From NCBI RefSeq assembly GCF_023218075.1, contig NZ_JALPTB010000059.1, forward strand, positions 1 through 40,981: a DNA stretch of 40,981 bases, written 5' to 3'. The translations under genes and the position numbers were made by a program. This DNA comes from Rhodococcus sp. HM1 (GTDB lineage: Bacteria; Actinomycetota; Actinomycetes; Mycobacteriales; Mycobacteriaceae). Below are positions 7,554 to 40,277 of this stretch, piece after piece (position 1 is the stretch's first letter; each line of letters opens with the position of its first letter). Under the pieces are notes generated by a model. It saw only the letters and a program-made list of their open reading frames with translations, was not told the origin of the DNA and ran no database searches.

Positions 7554-7579
7554 GTACTGCTCCTTTCAGCGAGTGGAAG

Positions 7580-7849
7580 TCAGGCCGAGATCCGGCGACT
7601 ATCGGATTGCATGTCATTAGTCACAATGGCCACGACAGTTGACTCATGGGCAACGAAGAGGTCCTCCCAGGGGCAGTCGACATGCCTGGCAATCGCCAGG
7701 GCGAGATCTTCACTGAGAGTCGACATCTTCCCCGTCTCAATAAGGCTGATGGTCTGCTGCGTGCAATCGGTCAGATATGCGAGCTGGTCCTGCGTGAGCC
7801 CCCGACGCTTCCGCCAGCGCTGCACCTGTTCTGGGCTCTTCACCTTCAT
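7580..7849 (-). CDS. XRE-family phage regulator (Cro/repressor-like)
   Basis: Start chosen at the ATG at 7849 (MKVKSPEQVQRWRKRRGLTQ), which has AAGGGA upstream; the frame is open to 7930 but that part overlaps the promoter. A helix-turn-helix covers residues about 9-62 (LTQDQLAYLTDCTQQTISLI, then ETGK), followed by a short tail. It is the first gene of the leftward transcript from the promoter at 7935-7963 and divergent from the second regulator at 8072. Either gene may be the lysogeny repressor; first-gene position in the early operon makes a Cro-like role likely here. Confidence 0.75.
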   Translation of the reverse strand: MKVKSPEQVQRWRKRRGLTQDQLAYLTDCTQQTISLIETGKMSTLSEDLALAIARHVDCPWEDLFVAHESTVVAIVTNDMQSDSRRISA

Positions 7850-7930
7850 CCAGACATCCCTTCTGTAGGTCCGCGATCGTCTGGTTCGTCTTGCGAGCTT
7901 CATTCTGCCCCTCCCTTGTCCGGAATACAA

Positions 7931-7946
7931 ATGGATTACAATCCAT
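7931..7946. promoter_or_regulatory. Inverted repeat on the leftward -10 box (operator candidate)
   Basis: ATGGAT-TACA-ATCCAT is a perfect 6+4+6 inverted repeat that covers the -10 element of the leftward early promoter. A regulator bound here would block leftward transcription, as a lysogeny repressor should. Which of the two helix-turn-helix proteins binds is not known. Confidence 0.55.
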
Positions 7947-7963
7947 TAGTCACTACTTGTCAA
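7935..7963 (-). promoter_or_regulatory. Leftward early promoter of the prophage
   Basis: On the minus strand TTGACA (7963-7958) is followed after exactly 17 bases by TGTAAT (7940-7935), a near-consensus sigma-70-type promoter. Predicted transcription start is near 7928, giving a leader of about 80 bases before the XRE gene at 7849. It probably drives the whole leftward early operon. Confidence 0.7.
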
Positions 7964-8046
7964 CTGCACAAGCGGATTTGCCGTCGTACGCTGCGGATAT
8001 GATCGCGCTACTTGTAATGATCTTCGCGAACGGTTGGAACAAGTAG
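7952..8046. promoter_or_regulatory. Divergent control region with repeated CTACTTGT half-sites
   Basis: CTACTTGT occurs at 7953-7960 and 8008-8015, and its reverse ACAAGTAG at 8039-8046. CTTGT-N7-ACAAG forms an inverted repeat at 7956-7972. A possible rightward -10 (TATGAT) lies at 7998-8003 with only a weak -35. Repeated sites on both sides of divergent promoters are typical of phage immunity regions. The region holds no gene. Confidence 0.45.
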
Positions 8047-8071
8047 ACACCCGGAGGGGACCTTTAGCGGC

Positions 8072-8641
8072 ATGCCGAGACAGCACAAACACCCGTCCCT
8101 TCAGGACCTGGTCAACAAGGCCGCCGAGGATCGCTCCATGGCCGGTCGGGCGCTAGCCGACCTCGCCAGAAAGAACGGCTTCGAGATCACTCACGGAACC
8201 GTAAACAGCATCAGATCGGGCGCCTATAAGTCACGCCCCAGCGACGGCACCATCAGGGCGATCGCATGGCTTGCTGGCGTAGGCGAGGAGACAGCCTTCC
8301 GAGCGGCGGGCCGGACTCCACCTGGACGCCCCTTTGCGGACGATCTTCCGCCAGGCGTTGACGAGCTGGAGCCGCGGCAGCGCAAAGCGGCCGTCGAGAT
8401 GCTCCGAGCGATGGTGGCTCAACATCAGGAGATTCTTCAGCTCCGAGGCGACAGGGGTGAGGACTCGCCTGCCGACGATCCAGGCCTGCGCCTTGTCCAC
8501 GACGAGCCTGAGGACGTCGAGGAGCCCGAAGGTTACGAGCTGGCGGCGCGCAAGGGCGAGACGCGGGAACGGAAGCGCCGGCGACTGGAAGGCGAACCGT
8601 GGGATCACCCCGACCCGGACGGACCGGAGGATGGCGCTTAA
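8072..8641 (+). CDS. Putative prophage immunity repressor
   Basis: 189 residues; a GGAGGGG site lies 13 bases before the ATG. Residues about 8-70 (LVNKAAEDRSMAGRALADLA, RKNGFEITHGTVNSIRSG, then GTIRAIAWLAGV) fit a helix-turn-helix domain of the type found in actinobacterial prophage repressors. After a PGVDELEPRQRKAAVEMLRA helix comes an acidic region rich in Asp, Glu and Pro, then a basic segment (KGETRERKRRRLEGE). It precedes an ImmA/IrrE-type protease, the usual repressor-antirepressor pairing, and diverges from the XRE gene. Repressor identity is inferred from domain and context. Confidence 0.65.
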   Translation: MPRQHKHPSLQDLVNKAAEDRSMAGRALADLARKNGFEITHGTVNSIRSGAYKSRPSDGTIRAIAWLAGVGEETAFRAAGRTPPGRPFADDLPPGVDELEPRQRKAAVEMLRAMVAQHQEILQLRGDRGEDSPADDPGLRLVHDEPEDVEEPEGYELAARKGETRERKRRRLEGEPWDHPDPDGPEDGA

Positions 8642-8657
8642 TCACCGCCATCTCCCG

Positions 8658-8674
8658 TGTAGCAACCTGCTACA
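8658..8674. promoter_or_regulatory. Inverted repeat upstream of the metallopeptidase gene
   Basis: TGTAGCA-ACC-TGCTACA is a perfect 7+3+7 inverted repeat about 15 bases after the regulator stop and 40 bases before the predicted -10 at 8714. It could be a regulator-binding site or a small transcript hairpin. There is no U-run. Confidence 0.4.
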
Positions 8675-8701
8675 AGATCAGCGTGTTACGTGGAAGTTAC
8701 T

Positions 8702-8719
8702 TCGAACAAGTGTTCTAAT
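8702..8719 (+). promoter_or_regulatory. SOS (LexA) box overlapping a leaderless promoter
   Basis: TCGAAC-AAGT-GTTCTA at 8702-8717 matches the actinobacterial SOS-box consensus TCGAAC-N4-GTTCGA at 11 of 12 fixed bases. It overlaps a -10 candidate TCTAAT (8714-8719) placed six bases before the ATG at 8726, so transcription would begin at the start codon itself. There is no ribosome site, which fits a leaderless mRNA. Predicted: LexA represses the metallopeptidase until DNA damage. Confidence 0.6.
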
Positions 8720-8725
8720 CCCTCC

Positions 8726-9163
8726 ATGTCCCGCCGCAAGTGGAATCCATGGAGGCATCTGCACCAACACTTTCCGCACGTTGACGTCCACTTCGTCGAC
8801 CGCCCCACCCACGGAAATCTCGGCCGTCTCACCCGAGGCGGCATCGAGATCGACAAGACCAGCTCGCAGACAGAACGGCGCTCCACCCTCACACACGAGA
8901 TAAACCACCTCGAACGCGGACCCGTACCCCCGCACCCGTTCTTCGCAGCCCGCGAGGAACACGTCGTCGAGGAGCTCACCGCCCGCCGGATGATCCGCCT
9001 ACCCGAGCTCGTCGACGCGATCCTGTGGTGCCAAGGACGCGCCGACGACGAGACCGCCGAGGAACTGTGGGTCGACCATGACATCCTCCTGACCCGAATA
9101 CGCACCCTGACCGCCGGCGAACGGAAGTGGGTCGAACGCCAGATCGCTCGCCGGACCAACTGA
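8726..9163 (+). CDS. ImmA/IrrE-type metallopeptidase of the prophage
   Basis: 145 residues from the ATG at 8726. The zinc-protease motif HExxH is present (STLTHEINHLERG, near residues 56-68), followed by a long helix with EEHVVEELTARRMI that supplies a candidate third ligand Glu. ImmA/IrrE family proteins cleave or inactivate phage and ICE repressors, as ImmA does for the ImmR repressor of ICEBs1. It lies directly after the putative repressor and before the lipoprotein and integrase. The upstream SOS box suggests damage-induced synthesis leading to repressor loss. The substrate is inferred from this context. Confidence 0.8.
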   Translation: MSRRKWNPWRHLHQHFPHVDVHFVDRPTHGNLGRLTRGGIEIDKTSSQTERRSTLTHEINHLERGPVPPHPFFAAREEHVVEELTARRMIRLPELVDAILWCQGRADDETAEELWVDHDILLTRIRTLTAGERKWVERQIARRTN

Positions 9164-9188: not shown

Positions 9189-10067
9189 ATGCGTAGATAC
9201 GCGCTCGCCACCACACTCGCTGGGGCGCTCACGCTTACAGCTTGCTCGTCCGATGCCGAGCCCACTGCCACTCCTGCCAGCACCACAGCCACCACCGTTG
9301 CGTCCGAGGCGGCCAATCCCAGCACGACTTCCGAACGTCCATCAACGACAGCCGTCAATACTGACGTCGCCGAATACTGGCTGCGCGAGGAGCGCGAGGG
9401 CTACCTCGTAATGATCGTCGCCCAGGACTACACAGATCAGCAGCTGCGCAACGCCTTTCAAGAAGTGCGACGTCTGTACAAGAGTTCTGACGTGGGCGGA
9501 TGGCACGTCCAGGTCGACTGTGGGGACAGCCAGAAAGCAGAGGGCGGCGCGCGCCAAGCCAACGGCAAATTCGCCCTGGACTCACTGGGAGCAGCCCGCA
9601 CTGGATTAACCGTCGGCGGATATGAATTCGAACCACTTCCCAATCGCGCTTCGTGCTCGCCGGCGCCGATCGCAGCATCCTCCATCGACATGAGCAATTG
9701 CAGCGACTACGCCGGGACCCCGGTTCCGGAACTCGAAGCTGTCACCTCGACCTTCCCGTCGCGAGAACATGTCAAGTTCGTCACCACCCAGACCCTCGAA
9801 TGGAAAGAGGATCCGAGCATGGTGTCGGCCATCTTCTACATCTGCGCGCCCGAGCTGGACAGCGACGAGCTCAAAGACTTCGCGACGGAACTGGCAACCG
9901 CACTCCGGGTCACGCCGTACGCAGAGGCGGTGGGATCGATGTCGGTCTGGAACTTCTACGGCAAAGAGACTCTGGGAAAGATTCGCGTCGACCGGTACCA
10001 GGATTACAAGTTCGACGGCACGGGAGATCCTGCTGCTGTTCGGAGCGCTTGGCGAGAGCAGCCCTAA
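9189..10067 (+). CDS. Prophage-encoded lipoprotein
   Basis: 292 residues with a GGAAGGA site before the ATG. The N-terminus MRRYALATTLAGALTLTACS is a lipoprotein signal peptide with lipobox LTAC (lipidated Cys19). A Ser/Thr/Ala-rich linker runs to about residue 57, then a globular domain with four or more Cys and Trp-rich strands (VGGWHVQVDCGDSQ; FYICAPELDSDELKDF). It sits four bases upstream of the integrase gene and would be made in the lysogen. Phage lipoproteins in this position often act in superinfection exclusion or lysogenic conversion; no specific family recognised. Confidence 0.75.
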   Translation: MRRYALATTLAGALTLTACSSDAEPTATPASTTATTVASEAANPSTTSERPSTTAVNTDVAEYWLREEREGYLVMIVAQDYTDQQLRNAFQEVRRLYKSSDVGGWHVQVDCGDSQKAEGGARQANGKFALDSLGAARTGLTVGGYEFEPLPNRASCSPAPIAASSIDMSNCSDYAGTPVPELEAVTSTFPSREHVKFVTTQTLEWKEDPSMVSAIFYICAPELDSDELKDFATELATALRVTPYAEAVGSMSVWNFYGKETLGKIRVDRYQDYKFDGTGDPAAVRSAWREQP

Positions 10068-10070
10068 CCG

Positions 10071-11195
10071 ATGGCCACCGTCAAGTCGTACAGCACCACG
10101 AAAGGCACCCGCTACAAGGTCCGGTACATGAAACCGGACGGCAGCCAAGGCAGCAAGTCCGGATTCACCAACGCCGAGGCCGCCCGAGACTTCGCCTCCC
10201 GCATCGAGGTCCGCAAAGCCGACGGCGAGTACGTCGACCCCAGGGACGGACGCACGCTCGTCGCCGAGCTCGCGCCAGCCTGGCTTGCCGCCAAGAAGTC
10301 ACGCCTAAAGCCATCGGCGTACGTCGGCCTCGATTCCGCCTGGCGCACACACGTCGAACCGCGGTGGGGAAACAAGCCGATCGCATCTATCGAGATCAGC
10401 GACGTCGAAGAGTGGATCGCCGACCTGGTCACCGAGATCCGCGACCCCAACGACCCCGACGTCGTCATCAAGAAGGCAGCCTCGGCCACCACCACGATCC
10501 GCGCCCACGCCGTGCTCGCAGGCATCCTCGACCGCGCAGTGCGGGACCGGAAGCTGGTGACGAACAAGGCCCGGAAGATCGAGAACCTGCCGCGCAAGCG
10601 CCCCAAGCGGAAGATCTATCTCACCCACGAACAGGTGGCGAAAATGGCGGGTGCCGCCGGGGGCAAGTCGGCGTTGGTGCTGACGCTGGCGTACTGCGGA
10701 CTGAGGTGGGGTGAGGCGATCGGACTTCGCGTCTGCGACCTCGACTTGCTGCGGCGCCGGCTGATCGTCTCCCGCAACGCGGTGGAGGTCGGGGCGAATG
10801 TGATGGTCGGGACGACGAAGTCGATGAAGGAACGGTCGATCCCAGTACCGAGGTTCCTCGTCGAGGACCTGGCGGCGCTGTGTGAGGGGAAGGACCGCCA
10901 CGATCTCGTGTTCCCGGGAACCGACGGCGGGTTCATGCGCCGGCCGCGGCAACGGTCGTGGTTCCGGACCGCCGCGAAGGCCGCCGGGGTTCCCGAGCTG
11001 ACCCCGCACGATCTACGTCACACAGCGGCATCGCTCGCGGTGTCGGCCGGCGCTCACGTCAAGGCGGTGCAGCGGATGCTCGGACACGCGTCCGCGGCCA
11101 TGACACTCGACGTGTATGCCGACCTGTTCGACGACGATCTCGACCTCGTGGCGGACGCGTTGGACCGTGCGCGACGGGGTGCGATTTCGGCTTGA
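10071..11195 (+). CDS. int: Tyrosine integrase of the prophage
   Basis: 374 residues: an N-terminal AP2-like arm-binding domain (residues 1-55, KVRYMKPDGSQGSKSGF), a SAM-like core-binding domain (about 65-165) and a C-terminal catalytic domain. The catalytic set is complete: Arg212 (GLRWGEA), Lys250 (TTKSMK), His313 and Arg316 (HDLRHT), His339 (LGHAS) and Tyr349 (TLDVYAD). It mediates site-specific recombination between phage and host att sites. It ends 88 bases from the 3' end of tRNA-Val, the usual arrangement for integration at that tRNA. Confidence 0.95.
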   Translation: MATVKSYSTTKGTRYKVRYMKPDGSQGSKSGFTNAEAARDFASRIEVRKADGEYVDPRDGRTLVAELAPAWLAAKKSRLKPSAYVGLDSAWRTHVEPRWGNKPIASIEISDVEEWIADLVTEIRDPNDPDVVIKKAASATTTIRAHAVLAGILDRAVRDRKLVTNKARKIENLPRKRPKRKIYLTHEQVAKMAGAAGGKSALVLTLAYCGLRWGEAIGLRVCDLDLLRRRLIVSRNAVEVGANVMVGTTKSMKERSIPVPRFLVEDLAALCEGKDRHDLVFPGTDGGFMRRPRQRSWFRTAAKAAGVPELTPHDLRHTAASLAVSAGAHVKAVQRMLGHASAAMTLDVYADLFDDDLDLVADALDRARRGAISA

Positions 11196-11283: not shown

Positions 11284-11330
11284 TGGTGGGCGCGGAGGGT
11301 TTCGAACCCCCGACCGCTGGTGTGTAAAAC
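11284..11330. other. Presumed attachment-site core (3' part of tRNA-Val)
   Basis: Tyrosine integrases of actinophages usually recombine within the 3' half of a tRNA, leaving an identical copy at each end. This end lies next to int. The second copy must be left of the window, so the core length cannot be measured and 11330 is only a guide. Confidence 0.5.
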
Positions 11331-11358
11331 CAGAGCTCTACCACTGAGCTACACGCCC
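11284..11358 (-). tRNA. tRNA-Val (anticodon UAC)
   Basis: 75 bases including an encoded CCA. The acceptor stem GGGCGTG pairs with CGCGCCC; T8-A9, a D arm with AGCTCAGTGGTAGAGCT, anticodon stem CTGGT/ACCAG with loop TTTACAC (anticodon TAC), and T arm GGGGGTTCGAAACCCTC are all present. The 3' end faces the integrase gene, so it is the likely integration target and its 3' half is kept intact by the element's att sequence. Confidence 0.95.
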
Positions 11359-11892: not shown

Positions 11893-12024
11893 GAGCGGAA
11901 CTCAGCGTCGATGTGAGCGGAGCTCAGCGTCGATGTGAGCGGAACTCAGCGTCGATGTGAGCGGAACTCAGCGTCGATGTGAGCGGAGCTCAGCGTCGAT
12001 GTGAGCGGAGCTCAGCGCTTCTGA
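11893..12024. repeat. 22-bp tandem array between DUF3052 gene and ahpE
   Basis: Five full 22-base units begin at 11893, 11915, 11937, 11959 and 11981; a sixth, at 12003, diverges after 15 bases. Units start GAGCGGA(A/G)CTCAGCG and end TCGATGT, differing only by A or G at position 8. The sixth copy contains the last codons and stop of the DUF3052 gene, so the array seems to have grown from that stop region. There are no unique spacers. It lies in the possible ahpE leader and could vary in copy number between strains. Confidence 0.95.
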
Positions 12025-24121: not shown

Positions 24122-25792
24122 GTGACAGAATTTCCGGAGATCACCTTCCACGGTGCCGCCCGGACCGTGACCGGTTCGTGCATGGAAGTCACCTTCGACA
24201 GCCGACGGATCCTCGTCGACTGCGGTCTGTTCCAGGGCTCCCGGAGCCTCGAGAGACTCAACCTCGCGGAGTTCCCGTTCGATCCGGATTCGGTCGACGC
24301 CGTCATCCTCACGCACGCCCACATCGACCACTGCGGGCTCCTACCGAAACTGGTGGCCAAAGGTTTCGCAGGCCCGATCCATTGCACGGCCGCAACCGCC
24401 GACCTGCTCGAGTTCATGCTCGCCGACGCCGGCCGCATCCAGGAATTCGAGGCCGAACGCCGGAACCGGCGACGAGACCGCGCCGGCCACAAGCCGTTCG
24501 CACCGATATACACCGAGGCCGACGCGCTCGAAGCCTGGCGCCACACCCGGCCGGTGCCGCTCGACCAGTGGTTCGAACCGGTTCCCGGATTCCGCGCCCG
24601 CCTGTGGAACGCAGGCCACATCCTGGGTTCGGCGTCCGTCGAGCTCGAGGTGGGCGGTGTGCGGATGCTCTTCTCGGGGGATCTCGGGCCCGAACACAAA
24701 GCGTTCCAGGCCGATCCGGAGGGGCCGTCACATCTGGACTACGTGGTGTGCGAGTCGACGTACGGAGGTCGGACACGACCGCGGTGCACCATCGCGGAAC
24801 GCCGGGCGGTACTCGAGGACGAGATCAATCGTGCCCTCGGCCGCGGTGGCAATCTGGTGATTCCCTCGTTCGCTCTCGAACGGACCCAGGAACTGCTCCT
24901 CGACATCGCCCACCTCGTCGACGAGAACCGCATCGCCCAGGTACCGGTGTTCGTCGATTCACCGCTGGCGATTCGTGCCACCGACGTCTTCGCCCGGTAC
25001 GCCGGGGAACTCGAGGATCTCGACGGCCGAAACATCTTCCGCCACCCCGCTTTCGAGTACACGCAGGATGCCGAGGAGTCGATGCGCATCGACACCTTCT
25101 CGAGTGCGATCATCATCGCCGCGTCCGGCATGTGCGAGGCGGGACGGATCCGCCACCATCTCCGCAACAACCTCTGTCGCCACGACTCGACGGTGCTGTT
25201 CGTCGGCTACCAGGCGCAGGGCTCGCTCGGCCGCATCATCCTGGACGGCGCCGAGCGCGTGCGCATCTCCGGGTCCGACGTCGACGTGCGGGCACAGATC
25301 CGGCGTATCGACACCTACTCCGCGCACGCCGACCACGACGAGTTGATCGAGTGGCTGCGTGACCGCACACCCGTCTCCGGAGCGGTGTTCCTCGACCACG
25401 GCGAACCCGATGGGCTCGCAGCTCTCGCCGGCGCCGCACAGGAACTCGATCCGACACTCACCGTGGTCGCCCCGGACCTCGGAGCGCGGTACCGCCTGCA
25501 CGCCGGCGGACCGGCCGAACCGCTCGGCACCGCCGAGCCGCGCGCGGACATGACCGGCCGGGACTGGCAGAACGAATACGCCGCCTTCGCCGTGGATCTG
25601 CGCGAGAAGTTGTTGCGGATCGAGGACCGTCGCGCGAGGGAACAAGCGATCGCCGACATGAACGCCGTGCTCGAGAGCTACTACACCTCCGGAGCGCGGC
25701 CGAAGCGCGTGGCCGAGTCGCGACTCCGTGACGATCAGCCGCGACACAAGCGGCGCAAGCGGGCCCCGCGGCGGCGCCGCATGCGCTACTGA
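24122..25792 (+). CDS. Beta-CASP metallo-beta-lactamase protein with basic tail
   Basis: 556 residues from a GTG at 24122 with GGAGG five bases upstream. Metallo-beta-lactamase fold with HAHIDHCG (His65, His67, Asp69, His70) and FSGDLGPEH, then a beta-CASP domain (PVFVDSPLAIRATDVFARYA, IIIAASGMCEAGRIRHHL) and the RMMBL motif TYSAHADHDEL, as in RNA-processing CPSF-like nucleases. After about residue 480 there is a helical extension and a strongly basic end (RHKRRKRAPRRRRMRY) absent from typical members. RNA or nucleic-acid cleavage is predicted from the family; the basic tail could bind RNA. Confidence 0.85.
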   Translation: MTEFPEITFHGAARTVTGSCMEVTFDSRRILVDCGLFQGSRSLERLNLAEFPFDPDSVDAVILTHAHIDHCGLLPKLVAKGFAGPIHCTAATADLLEFMLADAGRIQEFEAERRNRRRDRAGHKPFAPIYTEADALEAWRHTRPVPLDQWFEPVPGFRARLWNAGHILGSASVELEVGGVRMLFSGDLGPEHKAFQADPEGPSHLDYVVCESTYGGRTRPRCTIAERRAVLEDEINRALGRGGNLVIPSFALERTQELLLDIAHLVDENRIAQVPVFVDSPLAIRATDVFARYAGELEDLDGRNIFRHPAFEYTQDAEESMRIDTFSSAIIIAASGMCEAGRIRHHLRNNLCRHDSTVLFVGYQAQGSLGRIILDGAERVRISGSDVDVRAQIRRIDTYSAHADHDELIEWLRDRTPVSGAVFLDHGEPDGLAALAGAAQELDPTLTVVAPDLGARYRLHAGGPAEPLGTAEPRADMTGRDWQNEYAAFAVDLREKLLRIEDRRAREQAIADMNAVLESYYTSGARPKRVAESRLRDDQPRHKRRKRAPRRRRMRY

Positions 25793-38756: not shown

Positions 38757-40265
38757 CTACGGCGCGTCGCCGTTCGCGTCCCCGGAGGGTTCCCGCATCC
38801 ACCGCCTGCGATGCTCGCGCAGCTCGGTTTCGCGGCGGGCGCGGTAGTGCGCCAACGCCGCCGACAGCAGATCACCGAGGTGATGCCGGTGATTGACCCG
38901 AGGTCTCTGCTCGGGGTCGATGTGCGGTGGCGGGATCCACTCCGTGCGACCCGGATACTCCGAACCTGCCGACGCAACGCGCGTTTCCCAACCACCGTGC
39001 CCGTCGTGCACCAACGCATGACACGCATCGCACGCCAGATCCTCGTTGGTGATGTCGGTGAGCCCGCCGTCCTTCCACTCTCTGATGTGATGCACCGCCG
39101 TGAGTGTCGCCGGAGCATCGCAGCCCGGCCGGGTGCAACCGCCCGACGCGGCGATCAACGCCAGCCGCTGATCGACCGACGCCAAGCGCTTGGCGCGGCC
39201 GAGATGCAGCGGCCGGCCATGATGATCGAAGACCGCCAGCACCGGATGGGCGTTCTCGGCCATGCGCAGCGCGTCCCGGATCGGCACCAGCCCACCGGAC
39301 GCGGTGGTCACGATGCCGGTCGCTTCCTCGAGTTGCGTGACGGTCATGGTCAGGATCGCGGTCACCGGAAGTCCCCGATGGCTGCCGAGCACACCCGACG
39401 ACAGCAGTTGCCGCAGGGCGACTTTCAACGCGTCGTGGTTGCGCTGCACCGCGGTGCGGGTGTCGCGGGCCGCGGCCTTCGCCAGCGCATCGCGGTCGAG
39501 GGTCTCGGATTCGACATCACCGGAGGGCGATTCGGGATCGTCCGGATTGTTCATGCCCGGCCGGGCGAGTTTCGCCAGCACCGGTTCGAGCAGCGCCCGG
39601 GTCTCGGGATCGATCAGCCCCGAGATCGGCGTCATGAGATCCGTTCCCTGCTTGCCGATCCGCAGACCACGCCGCCGCTTGCGTTCCTTCTCGTCGGGCA
39701 CGTCCCCGTCCGGATTCAGATACGCGAGCAGATGCGCCCCGATCTTGGCGACTTCTTCGGGGGTGACCGAACGCGCGGCATCCGCCAGGATCTGCTCGGC
39801 AACGGTGATCTCGTCGAACCCGACCGTGCGCGGCACCTTCCGCATGGTCTTCGCGACGGCCGCGACATGGTCGGGTCCGATCGCACCGTCCCGCACCGCC
39901 GCCGCGGTGGCGGGCAGGTCCGGCTCGAGGCCGCCGCCGTCGACGGCGTGCCACACCCCCACCTTCCTCGCACCCTTGACGCGGCGCGCTGCGTCGGCGC
40001 CGGAGACCCGCAGCGTGCCGACCAGGAAGTCGTTGATCGAGCGGCACCCGAGGTCTTCCGGGACCCGCCGTTCGACGGCCTCGACGATCGCCCGGTGCCC
40101 GACGGCAGTGGCCTTGCGCAGGACGGTTTCGAAGCGCTGGAAGAACTCGACCAGGTCGTCGTTCGACAGGCCGGTCAGATCGTCTTCGAGCAGGCCGTCG
40201 ACAGCGGTGTCGAGGGCAGCAAGCCGCGCCCCGACCTCGTCCCCTCGTACCCCCATCGAAAGCAT
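38757..40265 (-). CDS. DUF222 (13E12-type) HNH endonuclease
   Basis: 502 residues. DUF222 domain over about 20-330 (DDLVEFFQRFETVLRKATAV; PISGLIDPETRALLEPVL) and a C-terminal HNH with zinc Cys: CTRPGCDAPATLTAVHHIRE, then NEDLACDACHALVHDG. The 13E12-type family is multi-copy in mycobacteria and relatives, and several members there are SOS-regulated. Here a -10 (TATAGT, 40272-40277) lies six bases before the ATG, so the mRNA would be leaderless, and an SOS-like box covers the start. Nuclease action inferred from the intact HNH. Confidence 0.9.
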   Translation of the reverse strand: MLSMGVRGDEVGARLAALDTAVDGLLEDDLTGLSNDDLVEFFQRFETVLRKATAVGHRAIVEAVERRVPEDLGCRSINDFLVGTLRVSGADAARRVKGARKVGVWHAVDGGGLEPDLPATAAAVRDGAIGPDHVAAVAKTMRKVPRTVGFDEITVAEQILADAARSVTPEEVAKIGAHLLAYLNPDGDVPDEKERKRRRGLRIGKQGTDLMTPISGLIDPETRALLEPVLAKLARPGMNNPDDPESPSGDVESETLDRDALAKAAARDTRTAVQRNHDALKVALRQLLSSGVLGSHRGLPVTAILTMTVTQLEEATGIVTTASGGLVPIRDALRMAENAHPVLAVFDHHGRPLHLGRAKRLASVDQRLALIAASGGCTRPGCDAPATLTAVHHIREWKDGGLTDITNEDLACDACHALVHDGHGGWETRVASAGSEYPGRTEWIPPPHIDPEQRPRVNHRHHLGDLLSAALAHYRARRETELREHRRRWMREPSGDANGDAP

Positions 40266-40277
40266 GTTCGAACTATA
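40256..40277 (-). promoter_or_regulatory. SOS box and leaderless promoter of the DUF222/HNH gene
   Basis: On the minus strand TCGAAC-ATGC-TTTCGA (40271-40256) matches TCGAAC-N4-GTTCGA at 11 of 12 fixed bases and spans the start codon at 40265-40263. TATAGT (40277-40272) sits just upstream as -10, placing transcription start at the A of the ATG. The -35 is poor. LexA would cover the start site. Confidence 0.55.

Follow-up and report, generated by a model that had tools for sequence, protein, structure and literature searches.

The window, meaning the whole 40,981-nucleotide stretch analyzed here, is one contig of the 6.93-Mb genome of a Rhodococcus-like host, and the named genome loci nearest to it come from Rhodococcus sp. 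SMB37 and R. phenolicus. The first ~11 kb resemble a prophage end that closes with an integrase gene and a tRNA-Val. The gene order begins with a divergent, Cro-like helix-turn-helix (HTH) gene on the minus strand (7580 to 7930, given as ORF limits; HTH_31, 7e-10; HTH_3, 3.4e-9; phrog_3, transcriptional repressor, 2.9e-12) and continues on the plus strand. There, a phage repressor gene (8072 to 8641; phrog_12831, transcriptional repressor, 4.5e-21) encodes a 189-residue protein with an HTH N terminus and a largely disordered C-terminal tail. After an 84-nt gap comes an ImmA/IrrE-like metalloprotease gene (8726 to 9163; 145 aa; phrog_87, metallo-protease, 9.1e-12), followed 25 nt on by a putative lipoprotein gene (9189 to 10067; phrog_22081, unknown function, 4.2e-10, with weak, sub-cutoff NCBIfam lipoprotein matches) and, after another 3 nt, a tyrosine integrase gene (10071 to 11195; Phage_integrase, 3.2e-24; phrog_1, 1e-64). 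ARAGORN places the tRNA-Val on the minus strand at 11284 to 11358, and it is a probable attachment site. On the presumed host side of the window, a 22-nt unit is repeated in tandem (5.7 copies, 11893 to 12017).

Several smaller elements surround the regulatory genes. The palindrome ATGGATTACAATCCAT at 7931 to 7946 adjoins the Cro-like gene; 329 nt off, at 7604 to 7624, is a 21-nt repeat related to this palindrome, and both are candidate operators for the repressor or Cro. An inverted repeat with perfect arms, TGTAGCAACCTGCTACA, sits between the repressor gene and the SOS box (8658 to 8674; variants occur in loci L004, L005, and L034). It was considered as a repressor operator and rejected: in a scan allowing 3 mismatches, no further copy turned up near the Cro-repressor region, and the repeat is unchanged in a phage contig, L035, despite the different DNA-binding domain of the repressor encoded there (described below).

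The protease gene, 84 nt past the repressor gene, has promoter-like sequence of its own. As the original prediction stated, an SOS (LexA) box, TCGAAC-AAGT-GTTCTA, lies at 8702 to 8717 and agrees with TCGAAC-N4-GTTCGA at 11 of 12 fixed bases; the published Streptomyces LexA consensus is tCGAAC-N4-GNNCGa (PMC9380542). The sole mismatch, G to T in GTTCGA, falls on a base common to the box and the -10 hexamer TCTAAT. The predicted overlap of the two elements is likewise present, with TCTAAT at 8714 to 8719 inside TGTTCTAAT (8711 to 8719, plus strand), which covers the right half of the box and is kept in 14 distinct fused upstream regions. TCTAAT is without the A of a TANNNT -10, and the TG that precedes it makes an extended -10. 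The ImmA ATG, at 8726, begins 6 nt past the hexamer, and the leaderless geometry that had been proposed recurs in 14/14 fused promoters, where the ATG lies 6 to 7 nt past TAAT. Judging from this geometry, transcription would start at the ATG itself.

How much can be read into a single motif? A high motif score was discarded as proof of the box, as the genome contains 117 sites with no more than one mismatch, or ~1 per 59 kb, which makes the score weak by itself. The window holds three one-mismatch boxes, the other two SOS-like sites being at 24561 to 24576 and 40256 to 40271. The bare motif being too common, the box is credible because its position and conservation exclude chance. Within the genus, the ImmA gene is found in 6 of 18 genomes as 8 copies with 46 to 100% identity to the query, and all 8 copies have a 10-11/12 box, then TCTAAT, then an ATG 6 to 7 nt on. 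The host genome itself carries a second ImmA locus (L042, contig C198), 53% identical, with a fused 10/12 SOS box and an integrase gene 7 nt downstream of ImmA. Farther afield, 162 ImmA-family matches in the fetched loci (the best 30 per genome search and the best 80 of 173 viral matches, 4 of the phage records found being read as DNA) gave 125 distinct upstream regions, which fall into 68 clusters at 75% protein identity. A LexA box of at least 10/12 precedes ImmA in 10 clusters, and one of at least 11/12 does so in 9. In 200 dinucleotide shuffles, the corresponding means were 0.54 (maximum, 3) and 0.03 (maximum, 1), and among 617 upstream regions of other ORFs in the same loci, there were 13 and 1, respectively. 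The box is not always fused to the promoter: in a group related to phage Mbo4 (5 LexA-type upstream regions) and in L095, it lies 59 to 67 nt before the domain start.

The host has LexA and promoters of its own with SOS boxes. Its genome has LexA matches above the cutoff and SOS boxes upstream of lexA, and upstream of recA, an 11/12 SOS box is accompanied by a RecA-NDp motif, TGTCGGTACCGGGCTCTAACGT. A second LexA-family protein is also encoded (L002, contig C170; 201 bits, above the cutoff), with no SOS-like box of 10/12 within its 3.6-kb locus. An exact scan of the 18 genus genomes for GAACNNNTGTTCTAAT returned 9 sites; ImmA follows 6 of them, and genes alike in the N terminus follow the other 3. 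The reversed pattern returned none. One of those three genes, in L164, was scanned and is imuA' (NF058630; 182 bits; cutoff, 65), an accessory gene of DnaE2-dependent mutagenesis. Since the same fused string stands before host imuA', the prophage promoter is built like a host SOS promoter. The string does not mark ImmA genes alone. A slightly longer version, TCGAACNNNTGTTCTAAT, occurs in 58 of 401 family genomes, mostly before other genes, among them genes in other genera. A viral pattern scan gave at least 120 matches; among the matches listed, 18 lie in contigs of GC ≥0.58, and 8 of these have ImmA directly downstream. Two viral contigs (L178 and L179) carry the same fused SOS promoter directly before the ATG of a ~100-aa protein that starts MG.NRRY and has no ImmA match; this is possibly another SOS-controlled phage gene.

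The original prediction was right about the LexA box and missed that many ImmA relatives carry a different damage-type promoter instead, of the RecA-NDp class used by PafBC. The motif TGTCN4-N7-9-TANNNT precedes ImmA in 26 of the 68 clusters, versus a shuffled mean of 0.59 (maximum, 3 in 200 draws) and 3 of the 617 other upstream regions. The pattern was first spotted in these sequences and then counted, its consensus, tTGTCRgtg-8-TannnT, having been published before (PMC5656591). When the spacing in TGTCRGNN-Nn-TANNNT was freed from 3 to 15, it was exactly 8 in all matches (21/21 clusters, 51 upstream regions). The start codon follows the -10 by 6 to 8 nt in 25/26 PafBC-type clusters; with distances this short here and in the 14/14 LexA-type cases, both promoter classes look leaderless. 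Damage-type promoters of one class or the other thus recur in 36/68 clusters. The other 32 have neither motif in its strict form, 8 of them having a weaker PafBC form and 24 having neither motif even in weak form. The region upstream of the window's own ImmA (L003) has no match to TGTC-N4-N7-9-TANNNT. No upstream region among the 125, as cut for this set, carries both motifs; when the cut reaches 15 nt further, L059 combines a PafBC motif with an 11/12 box that overlies its start codon. A quick ImmA tree (SH-aLRT support only) requires four changes of the LexA label, and starred branches force three or more of these. Rewiring of the ImmA gene between the host's two damage responses, LexA and PafBC, has thus probably occurred several times.

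Are the two proteins what the circuit would require? For the protease, the expected ImmA/IrrE type is supported by an HExxH motif and a predicted IrrE-like fold. The zinc motif is HEINH, in which H57, E58, and H61 are invariant in alignments of 17 and 37 sequences. The structural model (pLDDT, 92.4) has as its best Foldseek matches 3dte, 8sln, 8slm, and 3dti, all IrrE/PprI, with probabilities of 0.98 to 0.99 and TMq of 0.53 to 0.60 at weak E values of 0.16 to 0.30; no match reached E ≤0.001. At 145 aa, the protein corresponds to approximately the peptidase plus helical part of PprI only (target lengths, 240 to 248). Pfam M78 scores 17.3 bits, under the cutoff of 22, and NCBIfam gives no match.

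By tblastn, the repressor has relatives among the annotated immunity repressors of phages of Gordonia and Mycobacterium. Its model (mean pLDDT, 69; 11 sequences) is strandless throughout: five helices at the N terminus are followed by a long helix and by a tail that is largely disordered from residue 129. Fold matches are to HTH domains; RGHR and cyanases head the list, DdrO and the N-terminal domains of CapH and TP901-1 CI come after them, and no match reaches E ≤0.001. That it would be unable to cleave itself had been suggested from the lack of an obvious autoprotease domain, and the lack is real as far as profiles and models go: there is no S24/LexA match in Pfam or NCBIfam, and the model is without a LexA-like protease fold.

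If the repressor does not cut itself, what might be recognized in it? The original prediction named the repressor as the protease target, which fits the evidence, and overlooked that its tail is the likely target. The conserved tail (residues 128 to 189; codons 8453 to 8638, with those for LAAR at 8540 to 8551) stands out in the comparison with L035. There, ImmA is 98% identical, the SOS box is the same, and the repressor tail is identical at 57 of 62 residues, while ahead of the tail just 25 of 93 aligned residues are identical, indicating a different DNA-binding domain. A profile built from 7 tails was searched over 9,673 ORF C termini. At E ≤0.01 it found 33 distinct tails, and 33/33 are encoded on the same strand as an ImmA gene and ≤2.6 kb upstream of it; 26 of the 33 were absent from training, some of these being close relatives of trained ones. 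As background, 977 of 4,879 distinct C termini in ImmA loci occupy that upstream position. At E ≤1, 42 of 46 matches lie upstream of ImmA, and two of the remaining four are genes downstream of ImmA whose products end in DPDGPEFGA, like repressors (L014 at ~2249 and L158 at ~2234). The core LAAR, LARR, or a close form is present in 40/42, one of them with H for R; in the second ImmA locus of the host genome, L042, the tail of the upstream ORF carries LAAH. Within the last 80 residues, LA[AR]R is present in the phiGD20-1 repressor (L040) and missing from the annotated Holliday repressor (L041), so not every repressor fits the tail model.

The profile search took the place of simpler tail patterns, which had been tried and set aside. 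LA[AR]R occurs in 11/66 upstream ORFs versus 8/262 other ORFs, which is significant but noisy because the ORF adjoining ImmA is often not a repressor. A looser pattern gave 76/125, chance matches included, and [LMIVWF]Ax[RH] is present in 1,033 of 7,299 unrelated C termini. From the profile results, the repressor tail is probably the target of ImmA, and by analogy with related proteases (described below), cleavage may occur at or next to LAA/R.

Putting these pieces together, we propose that a LexA-repressed, leaderless promoter drives the prophage's ImmA-type protease gene, such that DNA damage leads to cutting of the repressor and derepression; we put the probability of this reading at roughly three in four. 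In a healthy cell, LexA would sit on the box and thereby over the extended -10. Upon DNA damage, LexA would be cleaved, and its loss would allow an ImmA-lipoprotein-integrase transcript to be made. ImmA would then cut the tail-tagged product of the repressor gene immediately upstream, probably at LAA/R or beside it, derepressing the prophage, with integrase supplied for excision. Readable in the DNA itself or its predicted products are the conserved box, its fusion with the promoter, the order of the genes, the fold of the protease, the lack of an autoprotease fold in the repressor, and the association of the tail with ImmA; from them we infer LexA binding, induction, cotranscription, and repressor cleavage. 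The box, fold, and tail evidence thus supports the circuit and widens it to a damage-controlled protease with a tail-tagged, exchangeable repressor.

The circuit as first sketched agreed with every part that could be checked against sequence; it also left out the integrase downstream on the same strand. This arrangement is found for 17 of 20 LexA-type upstream regions (1 has an integrase on the opposite strand and 2 have too little flank) and for 26 of 56 PafBC-type regions (17 opposite, 5 with none found, 8 with too little flank). As gaps reach 2.5 kb, cotranscription is likely only in tight cases such as the window. Some findings count against the circuit. These include the 24 of 68 clusters without either motif even in weak form, the departure of TCTAAT from the canonical TANNNT, and the unfused boxes of the Mbo4-type group and L095. 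The occurrence of the fused string before other genes in other genera and in viral contigs without ImmA, the weak fold-match E values, and a Holliday repressor without LA[AR]R belong here as well. The "direct route" to lysis that had been envisaged also needs qualification even with the circuit supported, since excision of pneumococcal ImmAR prophages often stalls ahead of lysis (PMC12637031).

Could damage act on the protease rather than on its promoter? ImmA might be made constitutively and activated posttranslationally by a damage signal (single-stranded DNA [ssDNA] or RecA), as for PprI, with the box merely adjusting its level. PprI does sense ssDNA directly (PMC10904395), and in pneumococcus, ImmAR prophages are responsive to recombination proteins, RecA among them (PMC12637031). 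However, the window's short protein matches roughly the peptidase and helical part of PprI only, damage-type promoters recur before more than half of the clusters (36/68), and promoter control and posttranslational control may act jointly. We regard constitutive synthesis as an unlikely substitute for promoter control. A different objection concerns the box itself, which sits in the immunity region and could be bound by the repressor or Cro of the prophage itself, as their operator, rather than by LexA, with ImmA autoregulated together with the repressor. Repressor autoregulation of such pairs is known for Listeria mpaR and ICEBs1 (PMC6872733). Yet the box is unchanged in L035 although the repressor there has another DNA-binding domain, host imuA' is preceded by the same string, and a direct-repeat scan of 7560 to 8760 gives nothing beyond a half-site-like match close to the start of the repressor, all of which makes an operator of this kind quite improbable.

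It could also be asked whether the promoter exists for something other than induction through ImmA. The same-strand integrase downstream of 17/20 LexA-type regions would suit an SOS promoter serving mainly the integrase or lipoprotein gene, and the CapH N-terminal domain among the repressor's fold matches would suit a CapP/CapH-like defense pair in place of an induction switch. Of the PafBC-type regions, however, 17/56 have an opposite-strand integrase, yet the damage promoter stays at ImmA; the tail tracks ImmA; and the repressor's relatives are annotated immunity repressors. Both versions seem very improbable, and LexA-controlled synthesis of a repressor-cutting protease is the reading we retain.

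To our knowledge, how actinobacterial prophages with repressors that do not cut themselves sense DNA damage is poorly understood. The circuit offers a testable answer, namely that a host damage regulator makes the repressor-cutting enzyme. A broader generalization, toward which we lean by a little, is that phages of mycolic acid-containing actinobacteria share one transferable cassette, in which ImmA is wired to PafBC or LexA, with several switches, and cuts a portable C-terminal tag (~LAA-R/H) on varied DNA-binding domains. If this is true, the presence of the tag on different DNA-binding domains means that repressors can swap immunity specificity with inducibility kept, and one ImmA could induce several resident prophages. 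Changes of immunity that preserve inducibility would thereby be explained, the PafBC response would be tied to prophages, a cleavage site is predicted, and cross-induction is predicted among prophages with a common tail.

How does this compare with known systems? In this bacterial group, mitomycin C induces prophages (PMC4972346). In the open-licence literature searched, no report was found of an ImmA-type protease under LexA in actinobacteria or of PafBC promoters linked to prophage induction or used by phages. LexA-bound prophage genes are known in Streptomyces venezuelae, but the accessible parts of that paper name no ImmA-type gene as a LexA target (PMC9380542). Prophage CGP3 of C. glutamicum has a repressor-metallopeptidase pair, cg1988/cg1989, but SOS and LexA are not mentioned in the portions available of the CL31 paper (PMC8002715). 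For the RecA-NDp promoters of PafBC (PMC5656591, PMC6789036, and PMC8223512), the 8-nt-spaced motif is found in ImmA relatives of other phages and is absent from the window.

Among proteases, Deinococcus IrrE/PprI resembles the window's ImmA in its predicted fold, and its substrate DdrO, which it cleaves between Leu and Arg, is one of the fold matches of the repressor. PprI differs in its greater length, its chromosomal origin, and its GAF-like domain, and the text available describes no LexA control of it (PMC4374696). The ImmR-ImmA pair of ICEBs1 and the CI-like/MpaR pair of Listeria share the order of a repressor gene followed by a metalloprotease gene (PMC6872733). The MpaR cut in TIAAHID falls between A and H, within a region common to several repressors (PMC6872733), and TIAA before H is close to the LAA-R core of window-type tails. 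Unlike these pairs, which are transcribed under their own repressor, the window's ImmA has a LexA-type promoter of its own, and the presumed target in the window's system is a C-terminal tail. A parallel in control is provided by the LexA-controlled antirepressors Tum of coliphage 186, AntC of N15, and GfoA/GfhA of the Salmonella Gifsy prophages (PMC3121763; for 186, also PMC12637031), in which a phage gene under host LexA yields a product that inactivates a repressor unable to cut itself. The window's ImmA apparently works like them, but whereas their antirepressors bind the repressor, its product looks like an ImmA-type metalloprotease encoded beside the repressor that it would cut.
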